Positions 33 through 32,144 of a stretch of DNA of 32,144 nucleotides are shown one piece after another (position 1 is the stretch's first letter; each line of letters starts with the position of its first letter). Below the pieces are notes generated by a model, which made no database searches, was not told where the DNA came from, and worked only from the letters and a program-made list of their open reading frames with translations. The stretch lies in NCBI GenBank assembly GCA_001799735.1, contig MGUA01000029.1:20748-52891 (forward strand), read 5' to 3'. This stretch comes from Elusimicrobia bacterium GWB2_63_22 (GTDB taxonomy: Bacteria; Elusimicrobiota; Elusimicrobia; Elusimicrobiales; UBA9959). The position numbers and the translations under genes are program-made.

Positions 33-770
33 TTAGTCTATTCTGCCGATCAGGCGGAGGAGGGCGTCGAGGATGGTGGCGGGGTGGGGGGGGCAGCCGG
101 GGATGTAGAGGTCCACCGGGATGTCCTGGGGGATGCCGGCGCATTCCTCGTGGCCGGCGTAAGGCCCGCCGGAGATGGCGCAGGAGCCGCAGGCGATGAC
201 AACTTTAGGCGAAGGCACCGCGAAATAGGTCTTGCGCAGCGCCAGCTCCATGTTCTTGGACACCGGCCCGGTGATCAGGATACCGTCCGCGTGCCGCGGC
301 GAAGCCACGAACTGCACGCCGAACCGCCCCATATCCCAACCCGGCGTCCCCAGCACGTTGCAGTCGGCCTCACAGGCCCCGCAGCCGCCCGCGCTCACCT
401 GCCGCAGCCGGAAAGAACGCCCGAACATGCGCCGCAGCTGCCCGCCCAGCGCCTCGGCCCGCCTGTAGCCCCGGTCCGACAGCACCAGGTCTTTGCGCTC
501 CCGGGCGCAGAGCCGGTGCTCGCGCGTAAATTCTATGGCGCCCGGGTCCGCCGCGGCGCAGGCCCCGCAGAAAACGCAGCGCCCGAGGTCCAGCCCGGCG
601 CCGGGCCCCGCGGTGATGGCCCCGTATGGACAGGCCAGCGCGGCCCGCTCCAATTTGTAAGACTTCACCTTCGGCCGCCCGAGGTAGCGGGGCGGCAGTT
701 TTATCTCCGGGGACGGGAACGCCATGGTCCGGTAGCCCTGTTTGATCCTCGCCAGCAAAGCCCTTATCAT
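33..770 (-). CDS. Group 4 hydrogenase-type small subunit (HyfI/NuoB-like) fused to a one-cluster ferredoxin domain
   Basis: This is the electron-transfer subunit of the membrane complex encoded upstream on the same strand. The C-terminal part (about residues 120-240) is NuoB/HyfI-like and keeps the proximal [4Fe-4S] ligands: Cys130 and Cys133 (GGCGAC), Cys197 (CAISGG) and Cys226 (PGCPP). The N-terminal part is a reduced ferredoxin domain: Cys47 before Pro, then Cys65, Cys68 and Cys71, with Asp75 where the last Cys of a second motif would be. That set matches the ligands of only one of the two clusters of a normal 2[4Fe-4S] ferredoxin. In E. coli Hyf/Hyc these two parts are separate proteins (HyfH and HyfI). 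At 245 residues it is about HyfI size. Its start overlaps the large-subunit stop by four bases (ATGA), so translation is probably coupled. It is the last gene of the operon in the window. Family assignment is firm; the physiological partner is unknown. Confidence 0.9.
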   Translation of the reverse strand: MIRALLARIKQGYRTMAFPSPEIKLPPRYLGRPKVKSYKLERAALACPYGAITAGPGAGLDLGRCVFCGACAAADPGAIEFTREHRLCARERKDLVLSDRGYRRAEALGGQLRRMFGRSFRLRQVSAGGCGACEADCNVLGTPGWDMGRFGVQFVASPRHADGILITGPVSKNMELALRKTYFAVPSPKVVIACGSCAISGGPYAGHEECAGIPQDIPVDLYIPGCPPHPATILDALLRLIGRID

Positions 771-2218: not shown

Positions 2219-3702
2219 ATGTTAAGCGCCGCCCCCTCGAGCAGCCGGTGCAGCCAGTCCGGGATAAAAAGGCCGATGAACATTACGCAGGCGAAGAAAA
2301 CGGCCGCCGGCAGCAGCATCCCGGAGGGCTCCTTAAAAGCTTTCTCGCCGGGCCTGGCCTCGTGCTCGCCGAAGGTCATGGAGATGAAGACCTTGGCCAT
2401 CCCGGCGAACAGCAGCGCCAGGAAGACGAGGAAGACCCCGGCCAGCAAGTAATGCCGGCCCGCCAGCGCCTCACGGAGGATCACGAACTTGGAGAGGAAG
2501 ATGCCGGAAGGCGGCAGGCCGGTGATGAGGAAGAACCCGCCCAGCCAGAGCACCGCGGTGCGGGGCGCGCGGCGCCACAGACCGCGCACGTCGGCGATGC
2601 GCTTGGTCTTCTCGGCGGCCAGCACCACGCCGGAGGTGAAGAAGAGGCCGGCCTTGACCAGGGAATGGCTGACGGCCCCGAGCAGCGCGCCGTAGACGGC
2701 CCCGCCGCCCAGGCCGGCGCCGATGGCCAGTATGCCCATATGCTCGATGCTCGAATAGGCCAGCAGGCGCTTGTAGTCGCGCTGGCCCAGCATGAAGAGA
2801 GCCGCCGTCACCAGGGAGAACAGCCCGAAGAGGACCAGGATCCCGCCGGAGAAATCCGCAAGCCCGGCGGCCGAGCAGACCGAGCCGGCGCGCAGGATGC
2901 CGAGGAAGGCGCAGTTGAGCAGGGCGCCGGAAAGCAGCGCCGAAACCACCGCCGGCGCCTCGCTGTGCGCGTCGGGCAGCCAGGTGTGGAAGGGGGCAAG
3001 CCCCATCTTGGTGCCGTAACCTACGAAGAGGAAGAGGAAAGCCGCCTTCAGCAGGGGCTTGTCCAGCAGGTCGGCCCCGGCGAGCAGGCCGCCCAGGTCC
3101 AGGCCGGCGCCGCTCTTCAGGCCGGCCGCGCCGAGAAAGAGGTTGCCCATCAGCGCGAGCGCGATGCCGACGGAGCAGATCAGCAGATACTTCCAGGTAG
3201 CCTCCAGCGAGCGCTTGTGGCGGTGGAAGTAGATCAGCGGCGCCGAGAGCAGCGTGGTCGCCTCGACGAAAGCCCAGAGCAGGCCCAGGTGGCGGCTGGC
3301 AGTCACGGCGGTCATCGCCGCCAGGAAGAGCAGCAGGCAGCCGGTGAACACCGTCTCGGGCGCGTTGTTGAAGATGAACCCGTCCTCGGCGTCCTCACCG
3401 GGATTGCGCTTCTCGGAAGCCAGGTAGGCCACCGCGTAATGGGCGGCCCCCAGAAAGAGAGCGGAAGTGGTGCAGAGGAACAGCAGCCCCAGCGCGTCGT
3501 AGGCGAACCATTCGCCGGGAACGGGCGGGGGGAAGGAGCCGAGGGCGCTGCGGGCGGAAACGAAAGTATAGAGCAGCAGGGCGGTCAGCAGGGCGTGGCC
3601 CCTGGCCGTCCACAGCAGCAGCGACCGGCGCGCGAGGTCGCCCCGCACCAAAAAGGACAGGAGGCCGGCGGCCAGCGGCAGGAGCATCAGCGCTTTGATC
3701 AT
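2215..3702 (-). CDS. Proton-antiporter-like membrane subunit (HyfF/NuoN-MrpD family)
   Basis: This polytopic membrane protein of about 495 residues belongs to the proton-conducting transporter family found in complex I, Mrp antiporters and group 4 hydrogenases. The central region contains the family signatures SEAPAVVSALLSG and LAYSSIEHMG, the latter around the helix that carries pumping-channel lysines. Its role would be ion translocation across the cytoplasmic membrane, driven by the redox arm. I chose the ATG at 3702 because it begins the first hydrophobic helix (MIKALMLLPLAAG) and overlaps the previous stop as ATGA. The same frame is open up to 4284, but that extension runs through the upstream gene and is arginine-rich shadow sequence. 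The gene is the fourth of six in the complex. Confidence 0.9.
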   Translation of the reverse strand: MIKALMLLPLAAGLLSFLVRGDLARRSLLLWTARGHALLTALLLYTFVSARSALGSFPPPVPGEWFAYDALGLLFLCTTSALFLGAAHYAVAYLASEKRNPGEDAEDGFIFNNAPETVFTGCLLLFLAAMTAVTASRHLGLLWAFVEATTLLSAPLIYFHRHKRSLEATWKYLLICSVGIALALMGNLFLGAAGLKSGAGLDLGGLLAGADLLDKPLLKAAFLFLFVGYGTKMGLAPFHTWLPDAHSEAPAVVSALLSGALLNCAFLGILRAGSVCSAAGLADFSGGILVLFGLFSLVTAALFMLGQRDYKRLLAYSSIEHMGILAIGAGLGGGAVYGALLGAVSHSLVKAGLFFTSGVVLAAEKTKRIADVRGLWRRAPRTAVLWLGGFFLITGLPPSGIFLSKFVILREALAGRHYLLAGVFLVFLALLFAGMAKVFISMTFGEHEARPGEKAFKEPSGMLLPAAVFFACVMFIGLFIPDWLHRLLEGAALNI

Positions 3703-4364
3703 TTGCCGTACTCCCCGCGGCGCCAGTCGGAGAGCTCGGAAAGCTCCGCCGTGTCGATATGGTCGAACTCGCGGCTGATATGGAAAATGGCGATGCCCAT
3801 TACGAACACCGCCACGAACACGTCGAGCAGGATGGCCAGCTCCACCATCAGCGGCTGCTCCACGAACAGCGCCAGGCCGAAAATATAGATGCCGTTCTCG
3901 ATGACCAGGTAGCCCAGCACCTGGGTGATGGCCTTGCTGCGCGTGGTGATGAGCAGGAAGCCGGTGAAGATGGTCGCCAGCGACGCCGGGACGATCCAGG
4001 CCACGTTGGTCTCGGGCAGCGGCAGGCGCGAGCCCAGCCAGGAGGAGGCGATGAAGGCGCCGAGGCAGAGCATGATGGAGGCCGGGTAGGTGATGAGCGG
4101 CTCCACGTCCTTGCGGGCGCCGGAGCGGTCGCGCGCGCGGGTGAGCAGCCAGGGGAACACCACGCCCTTGAGCAGGATGATGAAGGCCGCGAAGGCCGCC
4201 GTCCGGGCGTGCGGCGTGCCGGAACCGGCCAGCAGCGGCAGGATGCCCGCCACCACGCCCTGCACGGCCACCAGCCGGATGCACGACGACAGCGAGCCGG
4301 TAACGGCCAGCGCGAGGTCCAGCAGTATGACGAAAACGATTATAAGTTCGGCGAAAGTATGCAT
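3699..4364 (-). CDS. HyfE-like (NuoK-type) membrane subunit
   Basis: This hydrophobic protein of 221 residues is the size of HyfE (about 216) and has the same arrangement: several helices with conserved acidic residues in the NuoK-like part, including a VIENGIYIFGLAL stretch and the later LLDVFVAVFVMGIAIFHISREF segment. It probably forms part of the ion path between the NuoH-like anchor and the antiporter-like subunits. The ATG at 4364 (MHTFAELIIVF) overlaps the stop of the preceding gene by one base, giving a coupled ATGA junction. The frame stays open to 4778, but that part is a shadow of the upstream gene. The identity rests on size, hydrophobicity, the motif and the canonical B-C-E-F-G-I gene order. 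Confidence 0.87.
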   Translation of the reverse strand: MHTFAELIIVFVILLDLALAVTGSLSSCIRLVAVQGVVAGILPLLAGSGTPHARTAAFAAFIILLKGVVFPWLLTRARDRSGARKDVEPLITYPASIMLCLGAFIASSWLGSRLPLPETNVAWIVPASLATIFTGFLLITTRSKAITQVLGYLVIENGIYIFGLALFVEQPLMVELAILLDVFVAVFVMGIAIFHISREFDHIDTAELSELSDWRRGEYGK

Positions 4365-5281
4365 CAGCGTCCCATCTGGAAGATCAGCGCCAGCGTCGAG
4401 AATGCGAAAGCGGTTATGAGCATATAGGGCACCTTGATCAGGCGGAGCCGGGCGATAACGGACTCGACCACCCCTACCGCGGCGGCCACGCCGGCCATCG
4501 CCAGCAGGAAAAGCCCGGTGTCGCCGGCCCAGGAGCCGCTGTGGCGCGGCAGCACCATGCAGGCGATGAGCGCCCCGAAGAACCAGAGCTTCAGCGCCGC
4601 GCCGTAAAGGATATAGGCCAGCTCCGGGCCGCTGTGGTCGAGCACCATCACCTCGTGGATCATGGTCAGCTCGAGGTGGGTGTTCGGGTCGTCGGCCGGC
4701 ACGCGCGAGTTCTCGGCCAGCAGGACGATGAAGAAAGAGGCGGTCAGAAGGGCCAGCACCGGCGCGGCGGTGCGCCACAGGTCACCGGTCAGCACGCCGA
4801 ACATGCCGGCCAGGGAGGTCTGCCCGGTGACGCGGGCCAGCGCGGCCAGGCCCAGGAAGAAAGCGGGCTCGGCGAAGACGGCGAACTGCATCTCGCGGCT
4901 GGCGCCCATGCCTTCGAAGGCCGATCCTGTGTCCAGCGCGGCCAGCACCGTGGCGAAGCGGGCCAGGCCCAGCAGGTAGAGCAGGAAGATGAAGTCCCCG
5001 TCGAAAGCCAGGAAGGAAGGCCTGCCGGCGAAGGGCAGCACGGCCAGCGACGTAAGGATGGCCGCCAGGCCGATCACCGGGCCGGCCCGGAAAACCCAGG
5101 TGGTCGTGCGGCTGTAGACAGGCGCTTTCTGCAGCAGCTTGTAGAGGTCGTAATAGAGCTGCAGCACCGGCTGGCCCCGGCGGCCGGCGAAGAAGGCCTT
5201 GACCCGGTTGATGATGCCGGGCAGCAGCGGCGCCAGCAGCAGCGCCGCGAGGTACTGGGTGAGGGGTTTTACAATTTCCAT
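4364..5281 (-). CDS. NuoH/HyfC-like membrane anchor subunit
   Basis: This 305-residue protein matches the NuoH/HyfC/HycD family, which anchors the hydrophilic redox arm to the membrane and lines the entrance of the ion channel. Supporting features are an N-terminal helix followed by a positively charged loop with LYYDLYKLLQK, where NuoH proteins have a conserved Q-x-DxxKLL-type loop, the NTHLELTMIHEVMVLDHSGPE acidic loop, and about eight hydrophobic segments. The HLELTMIHE segment holds the conserved glutamates of this family. It overlaps the upstream antiporter-like gene by 13 bases and the downstream HyfE-like gene by one base, so all six genes are probably one transcript. Confidence 0.92.
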   Translation of the reverse strand: MEIVKPLTQYLAALLLAPLLPGIINRVKAFFAGRRGQPVLQLYYDLYKLLQKAPVYSRTTTWVFRAGPVIGLAAILTSLAVLPFAGRPSFLAFDGDFIFLLYLLGLARFATVLAALDTGSAFEGMGASREMQFAVFAEPAFFLGLAALARVTGQTSLAGMFGVLTGDLWRTAAPVLALLTASFFIVLLAENSRVPADDPNTHLELTMIHEVMVLDHSGPELAYILYGAALKLWFFGALIACMVLPRHSGSWAGDTGLFLLAMAGVAAAVGVVESVIARLRLIKVPYMLITAFAFSTLALIFQMGR

Positions 5282-7236
5282 AGTAAAAGCCCCAGCAGGG
5301 TCACGACGATATACATGATATAGATCTGCAGGCGCCCGTGCTGCAGCCAGCTGAACCTGTAGGCCAGGTCCCGTATGCGGGCCGCCGCCGGGGCGTAGAC
5401 GGCGTTATAGACCACGGCCTGGGCCTCGGTGGAGAAGGAGGCCTTGCCCGGGAAATATTCGGCGATTACGGGGTACTGCCCTAGCTTGCGCAGCACCGGC
5501 TGGAAGAAATCGGTAAGCGGCTGGGCGAAGGAGGACGCCCCGTACTGCATCCTGGCCGTCGGGGCGGCGTAGCCGCAGTCCCAGGTGGGCACGTCGGCCG
5601 TGCGCGCGGCGGGGAACATGGAGCGGCGCTTGACCGCCGCTATGGCGGCCACCGCAGCCAGCAGCAGCGCCCCCGCCGAGATATACACCAGGGGCCCGGG
5701 AACTTCCAGGGCGGCGGCGGCGCCGAAACCTCCGCCGAAACCGGCCCCCACGGCGGAGACCAGCGGGACGAGGAGCAGCGGGGCGGCGGCGCACACGGCC
5801 AGGCACAGCGCTCCCAGGGCGTACATGGAGAACAGCATCAGGCCGTCCGGGGGATGCGCCGCGGCGGCGCGCTCGGTGCGGGGCTCGCCCAGGAAGGCCG
5901 CGCCGGCGGCGCGCGCAAAAGCGGCGGCGGCCAGGGCCCCCGCGACGGCGAGGGAAAGCCCGGCCAGCACCCCGGCCAGCGCCACGGCAGGATAAGAGCT
6001 GATGCCTTTGAAGGCCCCGAGGTACACCAGGAATTCCCCGGCGAAGCCGTTAAAGGGGGGCAGCGCGCAGGCCGACGCGGCTCCGGCGATAAAGAGCAGC
6101 GCGGTGCGGGGCATTTTTTTGGCGAGCCCGCCGAGCGCGTCCAGCTCGGCCGTGCCGGCCCCGTGCAGCACGGCGCCGGCGCCCATGAAGAGCAGGCCCT
6201 TGAAAAGCGAATGGTTAAACACGTGCAGCAGCGCCCCCGCGAAGGCCAGCGCCGCGAGGCGGTCGGCATTGTGCGCGGCGCCCACCATGCCCAGCCCGAC
6301 GGCCGCCAGGATTATCCCTATATTCTCTATGCTCGAATAGGCCAGCACCCGCTTGAGCTCGTGCTGGGCCAGGGCGAACAGCGCGCCGAGGACGCAGGAG
6401 ACGCAGCCCGCGGCCAGCAGCGTCCAGCCCCACCATTCCTGCCAGGGGCCGAGAAAAACCAGCACGCGGATCAGGCCGTAGATGCCGGTCTTTATCATCA
6501 CGCCGCTCATCACCGCGGACACATGGCTGGGCGCCGCCGGGTGGGCCTCGGGCAGCCAGACATGCAGGGGGATGAAGCCGGCCTTCAGGCCGAAGCCGCC
6601 CAGGGCCAGCAGGAAAATGGCCGAGGCCGCCGTCCCGGAAGGGGTGCGGAAAGAGGCGAAGTCCAGCAGGGGCGAGCCGGCCCCGAGCAGGGCGAAGGCC
6701 GCCATCAGCAGCAGCGCGCCGGCGCCGCCGGCGGCGAGATAGATGAATCCCGCCTTGCGGGATTGGGCCTTGTCATGCTCGAAGAGCACCAGCAGGAAAG
6801 AGGCTGCGGCCATCAGCTCCCAGCCCAGCAGGAACAGCACGGCGTTGGCGGCGGTGAAGACCAGCACCATCGCGGCGGTGAGCGTGTTGAAGGCCGCCCA
6901 GGCCAGGCCCAGCGGCTTGGATCCGGCGTAAGACCTGAGGTAGCCGACGCCGTAAACGGCCGCCAGCCCGGTGAGCAGGAAGACCGGCACAAGGAAAAGG
7001 GCCGAAAGCGGATCGAGGCAGAAGCTCAGGGAGCCGAGCGGCACGGACCAGGGGAGGGAGAGCGTTTCGGCCGAGCCGGCGGCAAGCGTGCGCACGGCGG
7101 CCCAGAGCCCGAGCGCGGAGGCCGCGACCGCCCCGTAGGCGCCGGCGTCCTGCGCCCTGGAGGGCTCGCGGGAAAAGAAAAGCGCAAGAGCGGAGCTGGC
7201 GAGCAGCAGGATAATGGAGAGTAGGACCAGTAACAT
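5269..7236 (-). CDS. Large proton-antiporter-like membrane subunit (HyfB/NuoL family)
   Basis: The first gene of the complex encodes a polytopic protein of about 655 residues, close to HyfB (about 672). It contains the proton-conducting transporter core with LPEAHPAAPSHVSAVMSG and VLAYSSIENIGII, both typical of the NuoL/HyfB family and mirrored in the HyfF-like subunit downstream. After the core it carries a soluble stretch with TWDCGY and ARMQYGASSFAQPL, seen in HyfB-like proteins, followed by a final membrane helix. I prefer the ATG at 7236 because it leads straight into the first helix (MLLVLLSIILLL). An in-frame ATG at 7290 would add 18 polar residues. Neither has a clear Shine-Dalgarno sequence. 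A promoter lies just upstream. Confidence 0.88.
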   Translation of the reverse strand: MLLVLLSIILLLASSALALFFSREPSRAQDAGAYGAVAASALGLWAAVRTLAAGSAETLSLPWSVPLGSLSFCLDPLSALFLVPVFLLTGLAAVYGVGYLRSYAGSKPLGLAWAAFNTLTAAMVLVFTAANAVLFLLGWELMAAASFLLVLFEHDKAQSRKAGFIYLAAGGAGALLLMAAFALLGAGSPLLDFASFRTPSGTAASAIFLLALGGFGLKAGFIPLHVWLPEAHPAAPSHVSAVMSGVMIKTGIYGLIRVLVFLGPWQEWWGWTLLAAGCVSCVLGALFALAQHELKRVLAYSSIENIGIILAAVGLGMVGAAHNADRLAALAFAGALLHVFNHSLFKGLLFMGAGAVLHGAGTAELDALGGLAKKMPRTALLFIAGAASACALPPFNGFAGEFLVYLGAFKGISSYPAVALAGVLAGLSLAVAGALAAAAFARAAGAAFLGEPRTERAAAAHPPDGLMLFSMYALGALCLAVCAAAPLLLVPLVSAVGAGFGGGFGAAAALEVPGPLVYISAGALLLAAVAAIAAVKRRSMFPAARTADVPTWDCGYAAPTARMQYGASSFAQPLTDFFQPVLRKLGQYPVIAEYFPGKASFSTEAQAVVYNAVYAPAAARIRDLAYRFSWLQHGRLQIYIMYIVVTLLGLLLWKL

Positions 7237-7317
7237 TTTATAGAAGCCTGAAAGCGAGCGCCGTGAGGTGGTCCCGACAACTGCGGCCATCGATTACGAA
7301 CTGCGGCGTATACATAT

Positions 7318-21672: not shown

Positions 21673-22089
21673 ATGGCTAAAATAATCTGCATAGACGACG
21701 ACAAGGACATCCTTGACACCTGCGAAGTGGTGCTGCAGGGCAAGGGCCACACCGTTGTGACGGCGATCAACGGCCAGGAGGGCTTCGAGAAAGCCTCCAA
21801 AATGAACCCCGACCTGATAATCCTGGACGTCATGATGGACAACTCCACGGAAGGCTTCCAGACCGCCCAGAAGTTCCGCCGCACCGAGCTGCTTAAATTC
21901 GTCCCGATCATGATGCTCACCTCGGTCAACGAGACCTCGCCCCAGAAGTTCGGCGCCAAGGACGGGGAATTCCTGCCCGTGGACGCCTTCATGGAGAAGC
22001 CGATAAAACCCAAGGAGTTCCTGGCCAAGGTCGCCGAGCTGCTCGCCCTTAAGAAAGACCAGGTCAACGTAGAAGGCCGCACCAAATAA
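21673..22089 (+). CDS. Single-domain response regulator, first gene of the hydrogenase operon
   Basis: This 138-residue protein is a lone receiver domain. Acidic residues in ICIDDDKD, the phospho-acceptor Asp52 in LIILDVMMDN, and Thr/Ser and Lys in MLTSVNE and MEKPIK are all present. The stretch after Asp52 (VMMDNSTEGF) closely resembles that in the second lone receiver of this operon (LMMENPDSGF at 29160-29570), so the two belong to one subfamily. It has no DNA-binding domain. The start is supported by GGAGG nine bases before the ATG. The H-cluster-domain kinase downstream is a likely phosphate donor. It lies eight bases before rex. Confidence 0.93.
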   Translation: MAKIICIDDDKDILDTCEVVLQGKGHTVVTAINGQEGFEKASKMNPDLIILDVMMDNSTEGFQTAQKFRRTELLKFVPIMMLTSVNETSPQKFGAKDGEFLPVDAFMEKPIKPKEFLAKVAELLALKKDQVNVEGRTK

Positions 22090-22097
22090 GGAGAGTT

Positions 22098-22739
22098 ATG
22101 ACCAGGATTCCACAGCGCACCGTAGAGAGATTCTTCCGCTACTGCCAGTTCCTGCACACCAGGCTTGAGGCCGGCTCGGAGTTCGTCTTCTCGCACGAGC
22201 TGGCCGGAGCGGTAGGCGTCTCTCCCGAGCAGGTCCGCCGCGACCTGATGAACTTCCGCCTCAAGGGCACCCCTCAGCGGGGCTACCCCATAAAGGAGTT
22301 CATGGGAGAGCTGTACTCGCACCTGGAATCCGGCTCGCTGACCAAGATGGTGCTGGTGGGGGTGGGCAACCTCGGAAAGGCCATACTTTCCTACTTCCTC
22401 AAGCGCAGACCCAACCTCTGCATCGTGGCCGCCTTCGACCTAGACCCGGAAAAAGTAGACCGGGTCTATTCGGGCTGCCGGGTACACCATATCGGCCAGC
22501 TGGAAAGGACCGTCTCGCGGGAAAAGGCCACGGTGGGCATCATCACGGTGCCCGCCTCCGCCGCGCAGGAGGCGGCCGACATGCTGGTGCGCGCGGGCGT
22601 GCGGGCGATAGTAAACCTGGCCCCGGCGCAGCTCAAGCTGCCGCCCGGGGTCTTCCTGGACCAGATAGACATCACTCTCTCCATAGAGAAAGCGGCATAT
22701 TTCGCCCGCAAGAATTCAATCAAGGAGCAACTTCGATGA
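22098..22739 (+). CDS. rex: Redox-sensing transcriptional repressor Rex
   Basis: This 213-residue protein has the Rex layout: an N-terminal winged-helix domain (about 1-75) with SHELAGAVGVSPEQVRRDLMNF, and a Rossmann NAD(H)-binding domain with VLVGVGNLGKAILSYF and AAFDLDPEKV, followed by TVPASAAQEAADMLVRAGVRAIVNLAP. Rex binds DNA when NADH/NAD+ is low and releases it when NADH is high, so it often controls fermentative and hydrogenase genes. Its location between a response regulator and hydC in the operon, behind a Rex-geometry palindrome, supports local control and autoregulation. Good ribosome site AAGGAG. The stop overlaps hydC as ATGA. Confidence 0.95.
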   Translation: MTRIPQRTVERFFRYCQFLHTRLEAGSEFVFSHELAGAVGVSPEQVRRDLMNFRLKGTPQRGYPIKEFMGELYSHLESGSLTKMVLVGVGNLGKAILSYFLKRRPNLCIVAAFDLDPEKVDRVYSGCRVHHIGQLERTVSREKATVGIITVPASAAQEAADMLVRAGVRAIVNLAPAQLKLPPGVFLDQIDITLSIEKAAYFARKNSIKEQLR

Positions 22740-23221
22740 GCGTACCCAGCAAAGTGGGGAAAGTCCTTGAAAGCCACAGCTTCGCCAAGCGCGACAAGCT
22801 GATCCCGATCCTGCAGGAAGTGCAGGCCGCCGACGGCTATATTTCCAAGCAGGCCGTCCTTAAGGTGGCGGCCCATCTCAACATCCCCGCCAGCAAGGTC
22901 TACGGCGTGGCGACTTTCTATAACCAGTTCCGGTTCAAGCCGGTGGGCCGGTACCACATCATGATCTGCCGCGGCACCGCCTGCCACGTAAAAGGCTCGG
23001 CCGGCGTGCTGAAGATGTGCGAGGAAGTGCTCGGCATAAAGGCCGGCGACACCACCCGCGACGGCCTGTTCAGCATAGAGACCGTCGCCTGCATAGGCGC
23101 CTGCGGCCTGGCCCCCGTCATCAGCATCAACGGCGAGTTCCACGCCAAGATCACCTCGGACAAGCTCCGCAAACTCGTGCAAGACATCAGGAAAACGGAG
23201 GCGCAAAATGCCGCAAAATAG
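22736..23221 (+). CDS. hydC: NADH-dependent [FeFe]-hydrogenase subunit HydC (NuoE-like)
   Basis: This 161-residue protein is the thioredoxin-fold [2Fe-2S] subunit of trimeric HydABC enzymes, like NuoE of complex I. The N-terminal helical part (LIPILQEVQAADGYISKQAV) and ATFYNQF motif are typical. Cluster ligands are in CRGTAC (Cys-x4-Cys) and CIGAC (Cys-x3-Cys). It passes electrons between NADH-linked HydB and other clusters in the cytoplasm. Its ATG overlaps the rex stop by four bases and its own end overlaps hydB by 14. Confidence 0.94.
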   Translation: MSVPSKVGKVLESHSFAKRDKLIPILQEVQAADGYISKQAVLKVAAHLNIPASKVYGVATFYNQFRFKPVGRYHIMICRGTACHVKGSAGVLKMCEEVLGIKAGDTTRDGLFSIETVACIGACGLAPVISINGEFHAKITSDKLRKLVQDIRKTEAQNAAK

Positions 23222-25169
23222 GGACCTCATCGCCAGTAACCTCGCCGGCCTGCCGGCCTCGGTACGCACGGCTTTCCTTACCCGCGTCTTCGGCACCGAA
23301 GACTACGCCGAAAAAGCCGCGGCCATGCGGCGCGAGAACATTTCCAGAGCGGTCGTCTACATAGGCGCCGGCACCTGCGGCCTGGCCGCCGGCGCGGCCC
23401 GGACCATTGAAGCCGCAAAACGTTACATTAAGGATAACAAGCTGGAAGCCGACATCCTGGAAGTGGGCTGCATCGGCTACTGCGCCGCCGAGCCCCTGCT
23501 CGACGTGCAGCTGCCCGGGCAGGCCCGGGTCTCTTTTCAGCGCGCCACCGGCGAGGTAGTCCCTGGGCTGCTGGACTCCGTTTTCAGGGATCAGGCCCCG
23601 AGCAAGGACTACGTGCTCGGCCAGTTCGAGGACGGGGGGAAGAAGTGGCCCCGGCTGCCGCTGATGAGCGAGCACCCTTTCTTCGCCAAGCAGCTGCGCT
23701 TCGTGCTCAAGCACGTGGGCATCGTTGACCCGCTCTCCATACAGGAACACATAGCCCGCGGCGGCTACGGCGCTTTTCTGAAAGTCATCCACACCATGAC
23801 CCCGGCCCAGGCCTGCGACGCGGTGGAGGCCAGCGGCCTGCGCGGCCGCGGCGGCGGCGGCTTCCCCACCGGCAAGAAATGGAAGATCGCCCTTTCCTCC
23901 GACGCCGATCAGAAATACATCATCTGCAACGCCGACGAGGGCGACCCCGGCGCCTTCATGGACCGCTCCGCCATAGAGGGCGACCCTCACCGCATCCTGG
24001 AAGGCATCGCCATCGGCGCCTACGCCATCCACGCCAGCAAGGCCTATGTCTACATCCGCGCGGAATATCCGCTGGCCATCAAGAACCTCAAGAAGGCCAT
24101 CTCCGACGCCAAGGCCTACGGCCTGCTGGGAGAGAACATCTACGGCAGCGGCTTCGACCTGGACGTCATCATAAAGATGGGCGCCGGCGCCTTCGTCTGC
24201 GGCGAGGAGACCGCCCTCATGAACAGCATCGAGGGCCGCCGCGGCATGCCCAAGCCCCGCCCGCCCTACCCCGCGGTGCGCGGTTTGTTCGGCAAGCCCA
24301 CCGTCATCAATAACGTCGAGACCTTCGGCAACGTCTCCGAGATCATCTCCCAGGGCCCCGCGGCCTTCGCGTCCGTGGGCACCAAGGGCTCCAAGGGCAC
24401 CAAGGTGTTCGCCCTCTCGGGCAAGGTCAACCGCACCGGCCTCGTGGAGATCCCCATGGGCACCACGCTCAAGGAGATCGTCTTCGACATCGGCGGCGGC
24501 ATAGAGAACGGCCTGGCCTTCAAAGCCGTACAGATCGGCGGCCCCTCCGGCGGCTGCATCCCAATGACCCACATGGACATAGAGGTGGACTACGAATCCC
24601 TCAAGACCGTGGGCGCCATCATGGGCTCGGGCGGCCTGGTGGTGATGGACGAGAAGACCTGCATGGTCGACGTCGCCAAGTTCTTCATGGAATTCATAAA
24701 GAAGGAGTCCTGCGGCAAGTGCATACCGTGCCGCGAGGGCACGCTGCGCATGCTGGAGATCCTCAAGGGGATCACCCGTCCCCGCCGCGGCGAGAAGGAG
24801 GCCGACACCCTGGCCCGCTTCTCCGGCATCATGAACCTCGAGAACCTCTCGCAGGTCATCCGGGAGACCAGCCTGTGCGGGCTCGGCCAGACCGCCCCCA
24901 ACCCGGTGCTCAGCACGCTGCGCTGGTTCCGCGACGAGTACGAGGCGCATATCTTCGAGCGCCGCTGCCCGGCCGGCGCCTGCACCGAGATGCTGGAGTT
25001 CACCATAGACCCCGTCAAGTGCAAGGGCTGCACGCTTTGCGCCAAGGGCTGCCCCACGCAGGCGATAGTGGGCAATCCCAAGACCCCGCACTACATCATA
25101 GCCGAGAAGTGCATTTCCTGCGGTTCCTGCAGGACCGTCTGCAAGTTCAAGGCCGTCAACGCCGCTTAG
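23208..25169 (+). CDS. hydB: NADH-dependent [FeFe]-hydrogenase subunit HydB (NuoF-like flavoprotein)
   Basis: This 653-residue flavoprotein has four parts: an N-terminal thioredoxin-like domain (about 40-120), the NuoF core with the NADH-site motif GRGGGGFPTGKKW and the FMN-site motif NADEGDPGAFMDRS, a [4Fe-4S] site in SCGKCIPCREG, and a C-terminal 2[4Fe-4S] ferredoxin domain (CKGCTLCAKGCP and CISCGSCRTVC). It exchanges electrons with NAD(H). In the N-terminal domain three Cys are seen (GTCG and CIGYC) rather than the usual four of a NuoE-type cluster, so its [2Fe-2S] site may be altered. It may also provide the ferredoxin contact if the enzyme is bifurcating. It begins within the end of hydC and is followed after 12 bases by hydA. 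Confidence 0.95.
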   Translation: MPQNRDLIASNLAGLPASVRTAFLTRVFGTEDYAEKAAAMRRENISRAVVYIGAGTCGLAAGAARTIEAAKRYIKDNKLEADILEVGCIGYCAAEPLLDVQLPGQARVSFQRATGEVVPGLLDSVFRDQAPSKDYVLGQFEDGGKKWPRLPLMSEHPFFAKQLRFVLKHVGIVDPLSIQEHIARGGYGAFLKVIHTMTPAQACDAVEASGLRGRGGGGFPTGKKWKIALSSDADQKYIICNADEGDPGAFMDRSAIEGDPHRILEGIAIGAYAIHASKAYVYIRAEYPLAIKNLKKAISDAKAYGLLGENIYGSGFDLDVIIKMGAGAFVCGEETALMNSIEGRRGMPKPRPPYPAVRGLFGKPTVINNVETFGNVSEIISQGPAAFASVGTKGSKGTKVFALSGKVNRTGLVEIPMGTTLKEIVFDIGGGIENGLAFKAVQIGGPSGGCIPMTHMDIEVDYESLKTVGAIMGSGGLVVMDEKTCMVDVAKFFMEFIKKESCGKCIPCREGTLRMLEILKGITRPRRGEKEADTLARFSGIMNLENLSQVIRETSLCGLGQTAPNPVLSTLRWFRDEYEAHIFERRCPAGACTEMLEFTIDPVKCKGCTLCAKGCPTQAIVGNPKTPHYIIAEKCISCGSCRTVCKFKAVNAA

Positions 25170-25181
25170 AGGAAAACCATC

Positions 25182-26906
25182 ATGAAACTCACCATCAACG
25201 GAAACCCGGTAGAGGCCCAGCCCGGCGACACCATCCTGGCGGCGCTGAAGCGCCAGGGCATACACGTGCCGACCCTCTGCCACATGGAAGGCATGCTGCC
25301 TTCGGGCGCCTGCCGCATCTGCGTCGTGGAAGTGGAGGGGCAGAACAACCTGATCCCCAGCTGCTCGTTCCCCGCCGCCGAGGGCATGAAGGTGCAAACC
25401 AACAGCCCGCGCGTGATAAACGCCCGCAAGACCGTGGTGGAGCTGCTGCTGGGATCGCATCCCGACGACTGCCTGTACTGCGCCAAGCAGCCCACCTGCG
25501 ACCTCAGCCGCCTGGCCCGCGAGTACGGCGTCAGGGACCGCCGCTTCCCTGTAGCCAAGAAAAAGAAGCCCCTGGACATCTCCAGCCCGTCGATCTCGCG
25601 CGATCCCGACAAGTGCATACTCTGCGGCAAGTGCGTGCGCGTCTGCGAAGAAGTGCAGAGCGTGGCCTGCATAGACTTCGTCAAGCGCGGCTCCGATTCC
25701 TTCATCGGCTGCGCTTTCGACTCCAGCCTTAACGTCTCCTCCTGCGTCAACTGCGGCCAGTGCATCAACGTCTGCCCCACGGGGGCCCTGATGGAGAAGA
25801 GCGACATCCAGCCCGTGCTCGACGCCCTGACCAACGGGGATAAATACGTGGTCGTCCAGCACGCCCCGTCCATCTCCGTCTCGCTCGCCGAGGAGTTCGG
25901 CCTGCCGGCCGGCAGCGACGTAAACGGCGTCATGACGGCCGCCTTGCGCAAGATGGGCTTCAAGGCCGTATTCGACACCTCCTTCGCGGCCGACCTCACC
26001 ATCATGGAGGAGGCTAGCGAGCTCGCGCACCGCGTAAAGAACGGCGGCGTCCTGCCCATGATGACCTCCTGCTCCCCGGGCTGGATAAAGTTCGTGGAGA
26101 CTTTCTACCCGGAACTGCTGCCCAACCTCTCCACCTGCAAGAGCCCCCAGCAGATGCTCGGCGCGATGATCAAGACCTATTACGCCAAAAAGCAGGGCAT
26201 CGACCCCGCGAGCATCTACAGCGTCTCGGTAATGCCCTGCACCGCCAAGAAATTCGAAGTCACCCGCCCGGAGATGGGCCGGGACGGGAACCCCGACATA
26301 GACGCCGTGGTGACCACCCGGGAACTCGCCCAGATGCTGCGCATCTACGGCATGGACCTCAAGACCCTGCAGCCCGAGGAGCCCGATCTGCCGTTCGGCG
26401 ACCGCAGCACCGCCGGCAAGCTGTTCGGCGCCTCCGGAGGCGTCATGGAAGCCGCCCTGCGCACCGCGCACTTCCTCCTCACCGGGCGTGAGCTCGGCAA
26501 CCTGAAAGTCGAGGCCGTGCGCGGCCAGAACGGCATCAAGGAAGCCAAACTTAAGATCGGCGCCCTGGAAGTGGGCGTAGCCGCCGTCAGCGGCCTCGGC
26601 AACGCCCGCAAGCTCGCCGAAGAGATAAAGAACGGGCGCAAGGACCTCCACTTCATAGAGGTCATGACCTGCCCCGGCGGCTGCATCAACGGCGGCGGCC
26701 AGCCCTTCGCCCGCAACAAGGCCGCCATCGCCGAGCGCATGCGCGCCCTCTACAACATAGACGCCACCGAGAAGGTCCGCACCTCGCACAGCAACAAAGC
26801 CGTCCAGTCCCTATACAAGGACTTCCTCGGCAAGCCCCTCGGCGAGAAGAGCCACCACCTCCTGCACACCAAGTACAAGGCGCGCAAAGCCGCCGACGTA
26901 GCGTAG
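25182..26906 (+). CDS. hydA: [FeFe]-hydrogenase catalytic subunit HydA (group A, trimeric type)
   Basis: This 574-residue enzyme makes or consumes H2. From the N-terminus: a [2Fe-2S] domain (Cys residues in LCHMEG, ACRIC and SCSFP), a His/Cys [4Fe-4S] site (HPDDCLYCAKQPTC), two [4Fe-4S] clusters (CILCGKCVRVC and CVNCGQCINVCP), and the H-cluster domain with L1 (TSCSPGW, Cys297), L2 (MPCTAKKFE) and L3 (MTCPGGCINGGGQP). This is the layout of NADH-linked HydA in HydABC. L1 has Ser298 where many homologues have a second Cys. HydG, encoded at the window end, would help build the H-cluster. The stop is followed by a hairpin-rich repeat element instead of a close next gene. Confidence 0.95.
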   Translation: MKLTINGNPVEAQPGDTILAALKRQGIHVPTLCHMEGMLPSGACRICVVEVEGQNNLIPSCSFPAAEGMKVQTNSPRVINARKTVVELLLGSHPDDCLYCAKQPTCDLSRLAREYGVRDRRFPVAKKKKPLDISSPSISRDPDKCILCGKCVRVCEEVQSVACIDFVKRGSDSFIGCAFDSSLNVSSCVNCGQCINVCPTGALMEKSDIQPVLDALTNGDKYVVVQHAPSISVSLAEEFGLPAGSDVNGVMTAALRKMGFKAVFDTSFAADLTIMEEASELAHRVKNGGVLPMMTSCSPGWIKFVETFYPELLPNLSTCKSPQQMLGAMIKTYYAKKQGIDPASIYSVSVMPCTAKKFEVTRPEMGRDGNPDIDAVVTTRELAQMLRIYGMDLKTLQPEEPDLPFGDRSTAGKLFGASGGVMEAALRTAHFLLTGRELGNLKVEAVRGQNGIKEAKLKIGALEVGVAAVSGLGNARKLAEEIKNGRKDLHFIEVMTCPGGCINGGGQPFARNKAAIAERMRALYNIDATEKVRTSHSNKAVQSLYKDFLGKPLGEKSHHLLHTKYKARKAADVA

Positions 26907-26918
26907 CGCAGGACGGAC

Positions 26919-27024
26919 GGGGTGTTGTCCCCCGAACCCTTTGGGGAAGGGGGGCCCCGCCCGGCGGGGGGGAACCGCGCAACGGTTCCCCTGCAGCAAG
27001 CCAGGGTTCGGGGGACAACACCCC
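26919..27024. repeat. Hairpin element, copy 1, with 22-base perfect terminal inverted repeats
   Basis: This 106-base element lies between hydA and the sensor kinase. Its ends (26919-26940 and 27003-27024) are perfectly complementary over 22 bases. Inside are two small hairpins: CCCCGC/GCGGGG (26955-26969, loop CCG) and GGGGAACCG/CGGTTCCCC (26969-26991, loop CGCAA). It is flanked by an 8-base direct repeat GGACGGAC (26911-26918 and 27025-27032). It has no T-run, so it is not a simple terminator, and no open frame of note. A related element lies at 30745-30862. It looks like a MITE or REP-type element that may also act as an RNA structure in the operon. Confidence 0.85.
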
Positions 27025-27100: not shown

Positions 27101-29134
27101 ATGACACCCGAGAAAGAACCGCTGGTAAGGACCATAAAGGAACGCTGCAAAGCGTGCTATACCTGCGTCCGCGGCTGCCCCGCCAAAGCCATCCGCATCT
27201 CCGCCGGCCAGGCCGAAGTCATAAAAGAGCGCTGCATAGGCTGCGCCAACTGCGTCCTCATGTGCAGCCGCGGCGCCAAAGAGACCCTCGACTCCACGAC
27301 CAACGTAAAGACCCTGCTCAAGGGCGGCCAGCCCGTGGCCGCCGCCCTCGCCCCCAGCTTCCCCGTCGAGTTCGGCGGCATAGACCCCCTGCGCTTCGCC
27401 GGCATGCTCAGGGCCCTGGGCTTCAAGTACGTCTGCGAGGTCGCCTTCGGGGCCGACATCGTCTCCCTGCAGTACCGCAAGCTCATCAACGAAAGCCCCG
27501 GCAAGAAATTCATCAGTACCGCCTGCCCCGCCGTGGTCTCCTTCGTGGAGAAATACCACCCCGCCCTCGTACCCAGCCTCGCCCCCATAGTTTCCCCGAT
27601 GGTAGCCGAGGCCAGGATCATAAAGGACAAGTACGGCCCCGAAGTCAAAGTGGTCTTCATCGGGCCCTGCGTCGCCAAGAAAGAGGAAACCTCCCTCAAC
27701 CCCGCCGACATAGAGCAATCCATCACCTTCACCGAACTCCGCGCCCTCTTCAAGGACGCGGGCGTGGACCGCAACACCGCCCTGGACTCCCAGTTCGACC
27801 CGCCGCACCCCGCCAAAGGCGTGCTCTATCCCATGGGCGGCGGGCTGCTCAACTCCGCCGAGCTCGAAGAGGACCTGATGAGCGGCCGCTTCCTTTCCGC
27901 CGAAGGCCTGGAAAGCTTTCCCGAAGTGCTCAAGAACCTGGAGCACGGCGACATCGACGCCGATTTCATCGACCTGCTCTGCTGCAGCGGCTGCATCATG
28001 GGCCCCGGCATCAGCGTGAAGTCCTCCAAGCACGCCCGCGAGGCGGCCCTGCGCCGCTACGCCCGCAAGAGCTACTTCAGCATCCGCCTCAACGAGTGGG
28101 AGGAATCCATCCGGCGCTACCGCGGCCTGGACTACTCCGCCGCCTTCCAGCCCCAGGACCGCCGGATGAAGCTCCCCAACAAGGAAGAGCTTAAAGAAGT
28201 GCTGGGCAAGATGGGCAAGGTCAAGCCCGAGGACGAGCTCAACTGCGGCGCCTGCGGCTACCCCACCTGCATAGAGCACGCCATCGCCATCATCCGCGGC
28301 ATCGCCGAGAGCGAGATGTGCCTGCCCTACACCATAGACCGGCTCAAGAGCACCGCCGACGAACTGACCGTTTCCTACAACCAGCTGGCCAAGACCAGGC
28401 AGGCCCTGATGCAGTCGGAGAAGCTGGCCAGCATGGGCCAGCTGGCCGCCGGCGTGGCCCACGAACTCAACAACCCGCTGGGCGTGGTGCTGCTGTACGC
28501 CCACCTGCTGGCCGAGCAGTGCCAGAACGACTCGCGCACCTTCGCCGACGCCAAGATGATCACAGAGCAGGCCGACCGCTGCAAGAAGATCGTCGGCGGG
28601 CTGCTGAACTTCGCCCGCAAGAACAAGCCTTTCTTCCGCCAGACCGACCTGGTCAGGCTTGTGGACAATTACTCCAAGACGGCCTCCCTGGCGCCCGGGA
28701 TAAAGCTCGTCATAGACCCGTCCCCTGAGGACCTGCAGGCCGAGATGGACCCGGACCAGATCATCCAGGTGCTCACCAACCTCATCACCAACGCGGTGGA
28801 GGCGATGGGCGGCCTCGGCACCCTTACGGTACGCACCTTCGCAGAACGGGAGCAGGTGGCGTTCAGCGTGGCCGATACCGGCTGCGGCATAAAGCCCGAG
28901 AATTTCAAGAAGGTTTTCGAGCCCTTCTTCACCACCAAGCAGATAGGCAAGGGGACCGGCCTCGGCCTGGCCGTCTCCTACGGCATCATCAAGGTGCACC
29001 GGGGCAACATCACCGTGGTAAGCAATTCCGACCCCGCGGCCGGGCCCACCGGCACCACCTTCACGGTCACGCTGCCGCGCGTGGCCCGGGAAGCCGGCGC
29101 CATCAAGATGAAGGCCGAACCGTCCAGGAAGTGA
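27101..29134 (+). CDS. Sensor histidine kinase with an [FeFe]-hydrogenase-like H-cluster domain (candidate H2 sensor)
   Basis: In 677 residues it joins redox and signalling modules: a 2[4Fe-4S] domain (Cys16/19/22/26 and Cys45/48/51/55), an [FeFe]-hydrogenase-like domain (about 75-370), a third Fe-S domain ([10 protein letters not shown], then Cys in EMCLP), a short helical linker, and a HisKA/HATPase kinase with His454 in [34 protein letters not shown] and [13 protein letters not shown]-cluster motifs are modified: L1 is STACPAVV (one Cys), L2 GPCVAKKEE, and L3 [11 protein letters not shown], still giving four potential cluster Cys. This fits sensory (group C-like) [FeFe] hydrogenases. It probably measures H2 or redox state and phosphorylates the receivers of this operon. 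The ribosome site is weak. Confidence 0.9.
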
Positions 29135-29159: not shown

Positions 29160-29570
29160 ATGACCGACAAAACCAGAATAAAGATCCTCGTCGTGGAAGA
29201 CGATCCCGACATGATGGAGCAGATGAAGGTCTACCTCGAATCCGAGAATTTCGAGGTGGTTTCCGCCTCCACGCAGAAGGAGGCCGAACCGCTGATAAAG
29301 CCCGGCGCCTTCTCCGCGGCCGTGCTGGACCTGATGATGGAGAACCCGGATTCCGGCTTCGTGCTGAGCCACAAGATCAAGAAGATGGACGCCAGGATCC
29401 CGGTCGTCATCGTCACCTCCGTCACTAAGGAGACCGGCTTCTACTTCGACAAGGCCCACGACCCCAAGGCCTGGATCAAGGCCGACGCCATCATCCACAA
29501 GGAGCTGCGCTTCGAGCAGCTCAAGGCCGAACTCAAGCGCCTGCTGGGCGCGGGGGAAGGTCATGAGTGA
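29160..29570 (+). CDS. Single-domain response regulator, second in the hydrogenase operon
   Basis: This lone receiver of 136 residues has acidic residues in LVVEDDPDM, phospho-acceptor Asp57 in AVLDLMMENPDSGF, and the conserved Thr/Ser in IVTSVTKE. The usual conserved Lys lies in a divergent stretch (AIIHKELRF). The MMENPDSGF loop after the Asp resembles that of the lone receiver at 21673-22089. It follows the H-cluster-domain kinase by 25 bases with a clear AGGAG ribosome site, making it the likely direct partner. It overlaps the next gene by eight bases. No output domain is present, so it may relay phosphate or act by protein contact. Confidence 0.92.
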   Translation: MTDKTRIKILVVEDDPDMMEQMKVYLESENFEVVSASTQKEAEPLIKPGAFSAAVLDLMMENPDSGFVLSHKIKKMDARIPVVIVTSVTKETGFYFDKAHDPKAWIKADAIIHKELRFEQLKAELKRLLGAGEGHE

Positions 29571-30732
29571 CCAGCTCCCGGTCCACCAGCTCGACGTCCT
29601 GATCGTCGACGACGAAGCCGGCATGCGCGAAGGCGCCGCGCGGTCGCTCGAGGGCTTTTCCGTGCCGCTGCCGGACTTCAACGAGAACGTGACCTTCGCG
29701 GTGCGCAGGGCCGCCACGGGCGAGGAGGCCCTGGCCCAGCTCAAGGCCAAAAGCCCCGACATAGTGCTGCTGGACTACAAGCTGCCGGACATGACCGGCA
29801 TCGACGTGCTGACCGCCGCGCCCGGCGCCGGCGACTTCCTGACCATCATGATCACCGCCTTCGCCTCGCTGGAAGTGGCCGTCAACGCCACCAAACGGGG
29901 GGCCTTCGACTTCCTCGCCAAGCCGTTCACGCCGGAAGAGCTGCGCGCCACCATCTCCAAGGCCGCCCGCAGCATCTACCTGCACCGCAAGGCCCGCCGG
30001 CTGGAGGAAGAGAAGCGGCAGGTGCGCTTTGAATTTATCTCCGTGCTGGCGCACGAGCTGAAAAGCCCGCTGGCCGCCGTGGAGGGCTACATGCACCTGA
30101 TGAAGGAGCGCATGAAGGGCCCCGAGCTGGCCGCCTACGACTCCATGGTGGAGCGCAGCGTGGTCCGCATCGGCGGCATGCGCAAGCTGGTGATGGACCT
30201 CCTGGACCTCACCCGCCTGGAATCCGGCAAGAAAAAGCGCGCCATAGAGCAGGTGGACCTGGTCAAGGCCGCCGGCCTGATCCTCGAGAACGTCGCCGCG
30301 CTGGCCGCCGCGAAGAAAGTGACGCTGGAACTTAAGGCCCCGCCGGCGCTGGTGCTGTCCGCCGATCCGGGCGAGATCGACATGATAATTACCAACCTGC
30401 TCACCAACTCCGTAAAATACAACAAGGAAGGCGGCCGGGCCGTGCTGGAGCTCGACAGGAAAGAGGGCGGCGCCGTAGCCATACGCTGCTCCGACACCGG
30501 CATAGGCATGACCGAAGAAGAACTGGCCAAGCTGTTCGGGGAATTCGTGCGCATGAAGAACGAGCACACCCGCAACATCGACGGCAGCGGCCTCGGCCTG
30601 TCCATTCTCAAGAAAGTCGTCAAGCTATACGGCGGCGACGTAAAAGTACAGTCCAAGTACGGCGAGGGCACCACCTTCGAGCTCACCCTCAAAGACGCCC
30701 CCGTGCCCGCGGCAGCAGAAGCAGCACACTAA
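29563..30732 (+). CDS. Hybrid protein: N-terminal receiver domain and C-terminal histidine kinase
   Basis: This 389-residue protein has a receiver domain first (about 8-135; Asp71 in IVLLDYKLPDMTG, Lys in FLAKPFT) and a kinase core after it: His164 in VLAHELKSPLAAVEG, NLLTNSVKYN, DTGIGM and GSGLGLSILKKVV. There are no membrane helices. Receiver-first kinases usually take input by phosphorylation of the receiver, so it may be driven by the H2-sensor kinase two genes earlier. The target of its own kinase could be a lone receiver in the same operon. The start overlaps the previous gene. A hairpin element follows the stop. Confidence 0.92.
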   Translation: MSDQLPVHQLDVLIVDDEAGMREGAARSLEGFSVPLPDFNENVTFAVRRAATGEEALAQLKAKSPDIVLLDYKLPDMTGIDVLTAAPGAGDFLTIMITAFASLEVAVNATKRGAFDFLAKPFTPEELRATISKAARSIYLHRKARRLEEEKRQVRFEFISVLAHELKSPLAAVEGYMHLMKERMKGPELAAYDSMVERSVVRIGGMRKLVMDLLDLTRLESGKKKRAIEQVDLVKAAGLILENVAALAAAKKVTLELKAPPALVLSADPGEIDMIITNLLTNSVKYNKEGGRAVLELDRKEGGAVAIRCSDTGIGMTEEELAKLFGEFVRMKNEHTRNIDGSGLGLSILKKVVKLYGGDVKVQSKYGEGTTFELTLKDAPVPAAAEAAH

Positions 30733-30744
30733 CAGTGGGTTGGA

Positions 30745-30862
30745 GGGGCCAGCGGGGTGTTCCCCTAAGGCCCCAGTTGGGGAGGGGGACCCGTCCAGCA
30801 GGACGGGGGAACCGCGCAACGGTTCCCGGGTCTGGGGCACAGGGGAATACCCCGCTGGCCCC
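30745..30862. repeat. Hairpin element, copy 2, before hydG
   Basis: Related to the element at 26919-27024. The outer arms (30745-30776 and 30832-30862) are complementary over about 31 bases with a few mismatches. Inside are CCCGTCC/GGACGGG (30790-30807, loop AGCA) and GGGAACCG/CGGTTCCC (30807-30827, loop CGCAA). The core GAACCGCGCAACGGTTC and the end motif GGGGTGTT (30754) are shared with copy 1. The outer and first inner stems differ in sequence from copy 1 but are still paired, which indicates that folding is conserved. No flanking direct repeat was found; the arms simply continue outward. It fills the 153-base gap between the hybrid kinase and hydG. Confidence 0.82.
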
Positions 30863-30885: not shown

Positions 30886-32144
30886 ATGCAGACCGTATCG
30901 GTAAACGCAGACACCTACGAGGGCTTTCTTAAAGACGGCAAGGATTTCATAGACGACAAGGCCCTTAAGGCCGCCCTCGCCGCCCCGGCCCCGTCGGCCG
31001 ACCGCGTGCGGGAGATCATCGCCCGCTCGCTCGCCGTTTCCGAAGCCCTCCCCGTAGAGGACACCGCCGCCCTGCTCGCCGTAACCGACCCCGCCCTACT
31101 AGAAGAGATCTACCAGGCCGCGCGCGACGTAAAACGCAAAGTCTACGACAACCGCGTAGTCACCTTCGCCCCGCTCTACGCCTCCAACTTCTGCGTCAAC
31201 AACTGCCTCTACTGCGGCTTCCGCACCGGCAACGCCGGCGCCGTGCGCCGCAAGCTCACCATGCCCGAAATAAAGGCCGAGGCCGAGGCCCTGGCCGGCA
31301 GGATAGGCCACAAGCGCCTCATCTTCGTCACCGGCGAGCACCCCGCCACCGGCGCGAGCTACATTGCCGAGGCTATGCGGACCATCTACGACGTTAAAGT
31401 GCCTACCCGCCGCGGCTTCGGCCAGATCCGCCGCGTCAACGTTAACGCCGCCCCGATGAGCGTGGACGACCTCAAGATCCTCAAGGCCGGCGGCATAGGC
31501 ACCTACCAGGTCTTCCAGGAGACCTACGACCGCGAACTTTACGCCAGGCTGCACCCGGGCGGCACGCCCAAGGCCGATTACCGCTGGCGCCTCTACGTCA
31601 TGCACCGCGCCTTCGCGGCCGGCATCGACGACGTCGCGCTCGGCGCGCTGTTCGGCCTGAACCCCGACTGGAAGTTCGAAGTGCTGGGCCTGGTGGCCCA
31701 CGCCCGCGAACTGGAGGCCCGCTTCGGCATCGGCCCCCACACCATCTCCTTCCCGCGCCTGGAGAACGCCGACGGCACCAGCCTGCCGGCCGACAGCCTC
31801 AAGAACGTCTCCGACGCGGACTTTAAAAAACTCGTCGCCGTGCTGCGCCTGTCGGTCCCCTACGCCGGCATGATCGTCACCGCCCGCGAGCGCCCGGAGA
31901 CCATCCGCGAAGTCATCGGCATGTGCACCCAGCGCGACGCCAGCACCCGCATCGGCATCGGCGCCTACTCCGAGCGCTACGGCTCGCAGGAGGCGGAGCG
32001 CCAGCAGTTCATGCTCGGCGACACCCGTTCCCTCGACGAGGTCATCGGCGAGCTCGCGGACCTCGGCCACATCACCTCCTTCTGCACCTCGGGCTACCGC
32101 TGCGGCCGCACCGGCGACCATATCATGAAGCTGCTCAAGAGCGG
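30886..32144 (+). CDS. hydG: [FeFe]-hydrogenase maturase HydG, radical SAM tyrosine lyase (3' end outside window)
   Basis: HydG cleaves tyrosine to supply CO and cyanide for the H-cluster of HydA. The 419 codons present begin at an ATG with a strong AAGGAGG ribosome site. The radical-SAM motif is CVNNCLYC (Cys103, Cys107, Cys110). Typical HydG segments follow, including FVTGEHP, GTYQVFQETYD and RIGIGAYSERYGSQE. The full protein is usually about 470 residues, so roughly 50 are cut off by the window edge. The C-terminal auxiliary-cluster motif, normally CTACYRxGRTG, reads C400-T-S-G403-Y-R-C406-GRTG: the second Cys of the CxxC is Gly and a Cys appears three residues later. hydE and hydF probably follow but are not visible. 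Confidence 0.94.
   Translation, partial: MQTVSVNADTYEGFLKDGKDFIDDKALKAALAAPAPSADRVREIIARSLAVSEALPVEDTAALLAVTDPALLEEIYQAARDVKRKVYDNRVVTFAPLYASNFCVNNCLYCGFRTGNAGAVRRKLTMPEIKAEAEALAGRIGHKRLIFVTGEHPATGASYIAEAMRTIYDVKVPTRRGFGQIRRVNVNAAPMSVDDLKILKAGGIGTYQVFQETYDRELYARLHPGGTPKADYRWRLYVMHRAFAAGIDDVALGALFGLNPDWKFEVLGLVAHARELEARFGIGPHTISFPRLENADGTSLPADSLKNVSDADFKKLVAVLRLSVPYAGMIVTARERPETIREVIGMCTQRDASTRIGIGAYSERYGSQEAERQQFMLGDTRSLDEVIGELADLGHITSFCTSGYRCGRTGDHIMKLLKS

Follow-up and report, generated by a model that had tools for sequence, protein, structure and literature searches.

A putative sensory [FeFe]-hydrogenase joined to a histidine kinase in one polypeptide within a hydrogenase operon of Elusimicrobiota

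The stretch of DNA analysed here (the window) comprises 32,144 nucleotides of MAG contig MGUA01000029.1 from Elusimicrobia bacterium GWB2_63_22, a groundwater-type member of the Elusimicrobiota. The plus strand carries an operon-like run of genes in the order RR1, Rex, HydC, HydB, HydA, sensor, RR2, receiver-first kinase and HydG. RR1 (21673–22089) and RR2 (29160–29570) are single-domain response regulators that keep the acidic pocket, the phospho-Asp and the C-terminal Lys. Between RR1 and the sensor lie the redox-sensing transcriptional repressor Rex (22098–22739), the NuoE-like [2Fe-2S] subunit HydC (22736–23221), the NuoF-like subunit HydB with FMN/NADH and Fe-S features (23208–25169) and HydA (25182–26906), an NADH-dependent group A6 [FeFe]-hydrogenase (NF040763, 828 bits against a cut-off of 765). 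The sensor gene itself, the subject of this analysis, occupies 27101–29134. Downstream of RR2 are the receiver-first histidine kinase (RR-HisKA-HATPase; 29563–30732), which overlaps RR2 by 8 bp, and the maturase HydG (30886–32144, running off the window; TIGR03955, 374 bits against a cut-off of 312). A minus-strand open reading frame at 31099–32121 was rejected as a gene because it is a shadow of HydG. The maturase HydF is encoded on another contig of the genome; next to it is a weaker HydG-family match, possibly HydE. This gene order bears out the initial annotation in placing the sensor in a hydrogenase operon, with two lone receivers and a receiver-first kinase as neighbours, but the claim that these form a complete local signal circuit was overstated: RR1 and RR2 have no output domain, and Rex is the sole DNA-binding regulator within the operon.

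No Rex operator pattern was found in the window, and a scan of the 194-bp gap preceding the sensor gene returned no promoter or terminator. A 105-bp GC-rich palindromic repeat of a REP/MITE-like family lies in that gap, between hydA and the sensor (26920–27024), and part of it recurs at 30777–30827, in the interval that separates the receiver-first kinase from HydG. The repeat has 33 matches genome-wide, and the palindrome was accordingly rejected as a private regulatory site. Elsewhere in the window, the minus strand at 33–7290 holds genes similar to those for NuoB, NuoD and hydrogenase-4 subunits B/F, an additional operon resembling those of membrane-bound hydrogenases or complex I.

The sensor gene begins with ATG and encodes 677 residues, arranged as a pair of [4Fe-4S] ferredoxin motifs, an H-domain, an FeS domain, a coiled-coil linker, HisKA and HATPase_c. 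The two ferredoxin-type CxxCxxCxxxC motifs (27146–27265; Cys 16–26 and 45–55) fall within a Pfam Fer4 dicluster at residues 11–59, and are followed by the H-domain (PF02906, Fe_hyd_lg_C; 27332–28006, residues 78–302; 157 bits against a cut-off of 22.1). A C-terminal Cx2Cx4Cx16C motif (28244–28321; C382, C385, C390 and C407) coincides with the FeS domain PF04060 (residues 380–409; 37 bits against a cut-off of 23). The kinase core (28433–29080) consists of HisKA (residues 445–508, 46.9 bits), with the phospho-acceptor H454, and HATPase_c (residues 550–660, 87.6 bits), with N564, D592 and G618–G620. No PAS domain was matched in the sensor by Pfam at E ≤ 0.01. The top matches among PDB sequences (phmmer) are [FeFe]-hydrogenases, namely HDCR HydA2 (7qv7), HydA1 (7q4v) and a periplasmic [Fe] hydrogenase. 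Across 28 aligned proteins from two phyla, the eight ferredoxin cysteines, C142, C190, C295 and C298 of the H-domain, the four cysteines of the FeS domain, and H454, N564, D592, G594, G618 and G620 of the H, N, G1 and G2 boxes are invariant. These domains and residues confirm that an H-domain, Fe-S motifs and a full set of kinase boxes share one frame, as the initial annotation had read it.

The gene is real and under purifying selection, with dN/dS of roughly 0.07–0.4 per domain and a higher value in the linker at residues 311–375; orthologues 73–87% identical exclude a chance open reading frame. A survey of 59 genomes of the host's family, 26 with a PF02906 protein and 33 without, recovered the full-length fusion in 25 of the 26 hydrogenase-bearing genomes and in none of the 33 hydrogenase-free ones, and the gene order is maintained across the family. 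An orthologous sensor locus (L033/L011) is interrupted by an internal TAA, and HydA there is likewise split into two frames; a frameshift, an assembly error or early decay would each account for it. Beyond the family, several Desulfobacterota genomes encode full-length fusions 38–51% identical to the sensor, and at the Desulfobacterota locus L155 the set Rex-HydC-HydB-HydA-sensor-RR2-receiver-first kinase is likewise present. Firmicutes yielded matches at about 30% identity as well as other fusions of an H-domain to a kinase, and Pfam confirmed HisKA/HATPase in those Desulfobacterota and Firmicutes relatives that were scanned. The kinase fusion is thus not unique to the host genome but conserved and cross-phylum. 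That an assembly artefact or read-through had joined two separate genes is a reading for which the origin of the window as a MAG contig is the one point in favor, and it is refuted by the recurrence of fusion, linker length and neighbouring genes in MAGs assembled independently and in a second phylum.

The segment from the last Fe-S cysteine to the phospho-histidine (28322–28459) spans 46 residues in the sensor and exactly 46 in 26 of the 28 aligned proteins, including those of the Desulfobacterota loci L155 and L156; in the remaining two (L157 and L158) it spans 53 residues, that is 46 + 7, one heptad longer. A constant length, or a change by precisely one heptad, fits the requirement of a continuous coiled-coil signalling helix, and we predict that the linker forms such a helix, rigid and in heptad phase. 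As no PAS domain intervenes between the FeS domain and the kinase, signals from the former should reach the DHp bundle directly.

The input module formed by the H-domain and FeS domain also occurs on sigma-54 AAA+ activators, PAS-kinases, and GGDEF-HD, MCP and CheX-type proteins. Fusions to sigma-54 AAA+ domains were seen in many Clostridia and some Desulfobacterota (L112–L116, L118, L120, L128, L131, L159, L161 and L162), several of them adjoining HydA; those scanned carry a Fis-type HTH, L161 and L162 being assigned by length and similarity only. They are possibly one-component activators responsive to H2 or redox state. At L130 (6502–8889) the H-cluster sensor module is joined to GGDEF and HD domains in what is possibly an H2/redox-responsive c-di-GMP enzyme.

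The loops that would hold an H-cluster in the sensor are partly conserved and partly altered. By alignment, L1 reads STACP, with C142 kept at the position equivalent to C300 and Ala141 replacing the proton-relay cysteine C299, and L2 reads GPCVAKK, with C190 and K193 kept as the equivalents of C355 and K358 and Gly188 at the position of M353; both framing methionines are replaced in the H-domain, and residues 84–86 preserve APS, a motif of the CN pocket. L3 holds three cysteines, C294, C295 and C298, among which the CxxC pair 295/298 alone is invariant in the 28 proteins. In groups A and B, in the group D-like rows of the alignment and in PAS-only sensors, L3 instead has the spacing C-x3-C, and proteins of the kinase clade, like almost every sigma-54 fusion, lack one residue and read C-x2-C. 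C294 restores the CxxxC spacing, but it is limited to Elusimicrobiota and the one Desulfobacterota relative at L155, the remaining relatives having Phe, Tyr or Ser at this position. C142, C190 and C298 fit canonical H-cluster ligands. The ligand set would therefore be either C142, C190, C295 and C298 with a shortened loop or one that involves C294.

These observations refine several statements of the initial annotation. Where it set the L1 to L3 regions apart from those of catalytic HydA, the single L1 cysteine does not by itself separate the two proteins, because the HydA of the window likewise has one (TSCSPGW), located one alignment column earlier than that of the sensor. That four plausible cluster ligands are kept is borne out, although the invariant L3 pair is spaced one residue short, and its account of L3 has to be corrected to three cysteines. 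Given the CxxC spacing in place of the canonical CxxxC, a normal H-cluster cannot be assumed, and a search of the accessible literature, outside which most subscription papers lie, found no characterised enzyme or H-cluster precedent with a CxxC L3. An AlphaFold2 model built from 17 orthologues had a mean pLDDT of 46.7, too poor for reading ligand geometry or the linker helix and for a search by fold.

The sensor does not qualify as a catalytic group A or B hydrogenase, as its scores lie far below the curated cut-offs (97.7 against 405.95 for TIGR02512, group A; 181.5 against 450 for TIGR04105, group B). These scores also weigh against the idea that the protein is primarily an enzyme, a hydrogenase of weak activity with a kinase that monitors its turnover, and only secondarily a sensor. 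Thermotoga maritima HydS, with Ala at C299, still slowly turns over (PMC10055695); the sensor, however, has lost both framing methionines along with the proton-relay cysteine, and a dedicated HydABC adjoins its gene, so that we regard this explanation as very improbable.

A more serious competitor is a redox-only sensor, in which a [4Fe-4S] cluster alone would occupy the old H-site with no [2Fe] subcluster, and the redox state of ferredoxin or NADH would be read through the Fe-S wire to control the kinase without H2. The L3 deletion speaks for it, as do five relatives (L157, L158, L159, L161 and L162) in which K358 is gone and the APS motif is changed, although the Fe-S cysteines checked are kept. 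In each of their genomes the sensor is the only PF02906 protein, leaving no catalytic [FeFe]-hydrogenase, and HydG was not detected; the five proteins are likely hydrogenase-derived redox sensors, and evidently there is a version that does without a hydrogenase. One Elusimicrobiota genome (G042) has a further, diverged kinase fusion (L073, 7067–9043), which sits beside a receiver and a receiver-kinase with no hydrogenase genes in its 16-kb neighbourhood, points the same way. Against this stands the pattern of pocket conservation: K358 is lost in 5 of 11 genomes without detected HydG and in 2 of 29 with it (Fisher p = 0.011, with no phylogenetic correction, the counts being non-independent since L157 and L158 are sisters and L159 groups with both). 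K358 is retained in six further genomes that gave no HydG match over the cut-off, several of which look like incomplete MAGs. The pattern of loss suggests that organisms able to make the [2Fe] cofactor keep the CN pocket, and that the pocket decays in those that are not. The sensor at 27101–29134 retains both the K358 equivalent and APS, which hold the CN ligands of the [2Fe] site, as do nearly all relatives from HydG-bearing genomes, and within the host's family the fusion is confined to hydrogenase-bearing genomes. The pocket pattern favours an H-cluster in the sensor, if only suggestively, and on balance we consider the redox-only explanation unlikely, though well short of negligible.

The concept of such a protein is already known. 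HydDB lists a putative sensory group C composed of histidine kinase-linked (C1), chemotactic (C2) and phosphatase-linked (C3) members (PMC5037454), and the sensor fits C1, "histidine kinase-linked (putative)"; no characterisation of a direct fusion of H-domain and kinase was found in the accessible literature. Group C, or M2f, is defined by two N-terminal [4Fe-4S] motifs, a C-terminal Cx2Cx4Cx16C motif and a PAS domain (PMC8163306). The sensor shows H-domain homology, the N- and C-terminal Fe-S motifs, an unconserved C299 and a link to a histidine kinase, and departs from group C in lacking PAS, in the presence of the kinase on the same polypeptide and in having CxxC rather than CxxxC as the invariant L3 pair. 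Among the group C proteins, T. maritima HydS shares with it the paired [4Fe-4S] N-terminus, the H-domain, the Cx2Cx4Cx16C motif, Ala at C299, the change of M353 to Gly and an operon that also encodes a group A hydrogenase, and binds an H-cluster (PMC10055695; PMC8163306). The group D (M2e) protein TamHydS resembles the sensor in its N-terminus, H-domain, C-terminal Fe-S motif, absence of PAS and position next to a HydABC operon, but lacks a kinase and carries Ser at M353, where group D is defined by Ser or Thr and the sensor has Gly188 (PMC8163306); the group D-like rows also keep CxxxC. Clostridiales sigma-54 activators with Fe_hyd_lg_C and FeS regulatory regions have been listed before (PMC6615313); these share the input module, the CxxC L3 and often the proximity to HydA, and differ in their AAA+ and HTH output in place of HisKA/HATPase.

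In a tree computed without the L3 columns, group A (support 100/100) and group B (94/70) stand apart from every FeS-bearing sensor. The Elusimicrobiota kinase fusions and that of L155 are joined in a single clade (100/96), the group D-like rows fall separately from the sensor's group, and many deeper sensor branches are unresolved. The phylogeny against groups A to D that the initial annotation had called for thus separates the sensor from A and B, rows for which were anchored by NCBIfam, while placement relative to C and D rests on rows defined by architecture, with no named TmHydS or HydDB sequences among them. The label "group C" would accordingly describe the architecture and residues of the sensor. 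The regulatory [NiFe]-hydrogenase HoxBC-HoxJ offers a broader parallel, in that a hydrogenase relative serves as the input to a histidine kinase; unlike the sensor, it has a NiFe active site and its kinase is a separate polypeptide with a PAS domain.

Our preferred explanation, to which we assign a probability of about 0.6, is that the protein is a cytoplasmic sensory [FeFe]-hydrogenase whose H-domain and accessory Fe-S clusters serve as input to a HisKA-type kinase on the same polypeptide. H2 and/or low-potential electrons would bring an H-cluster, bound through C142, C190, C295 (and/or C294) and C298, into a different redox state; the change would then reach the C-terminal [4Fe-4S] domain and be carried by the unbroken coiled coil, with no PAS relay, to alter autophosphorylation of H454. 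Phosphate would pass to RR2, the receiver-first kinase and RR1, the receivers encoded nearby, and the output would tune the adjacent NADH-dependent HydABC or related metabolism. H-cluster occupancy, H2 as the signal, the direction of the response, the phosphotransfer partners and the target genes are the elements of this scheme that we infer. HydG in the operon, HydF elsewhere in the genome and the HydS-like substitutions at C299 and M353 argue for it, and the L3 deletion and the lack of any DNA-binding output in the operon besides Rex argue against it. More tentatively, and with clearly less than even confidence, we propose that the kinase fusions belong to a lineage of their own among H-cluster sensors, marked by a shortened L3 (CxxC; CC-x2-C in Elusimicrobiota) and a non-canonical H-cluster, in which the kinase would be driven directly through the heptad-phased helix with no PAS domain. 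The input module would have been exchanged between several outputs, namely HisKA, sigma-54 activator, GGDEF-HD and chemotaxis proteins.

The little-studied sensory [FeFe]-hydrogenases continue to carry the label putative, as measurements of their signalling output are lacking. With sensor and kinase in one soluble chain, no PAS relay and receivers nearby, H2-dependent autophosphorylation would be directly assayable in this protein, and its altered metal-binding loop makes it worth testing as a sensor of hydrogen or of redox state. Together, the CxxC L3 and the relatives from genomes without detected HydG provide natural variants that may show which residues an H-cluster needs.
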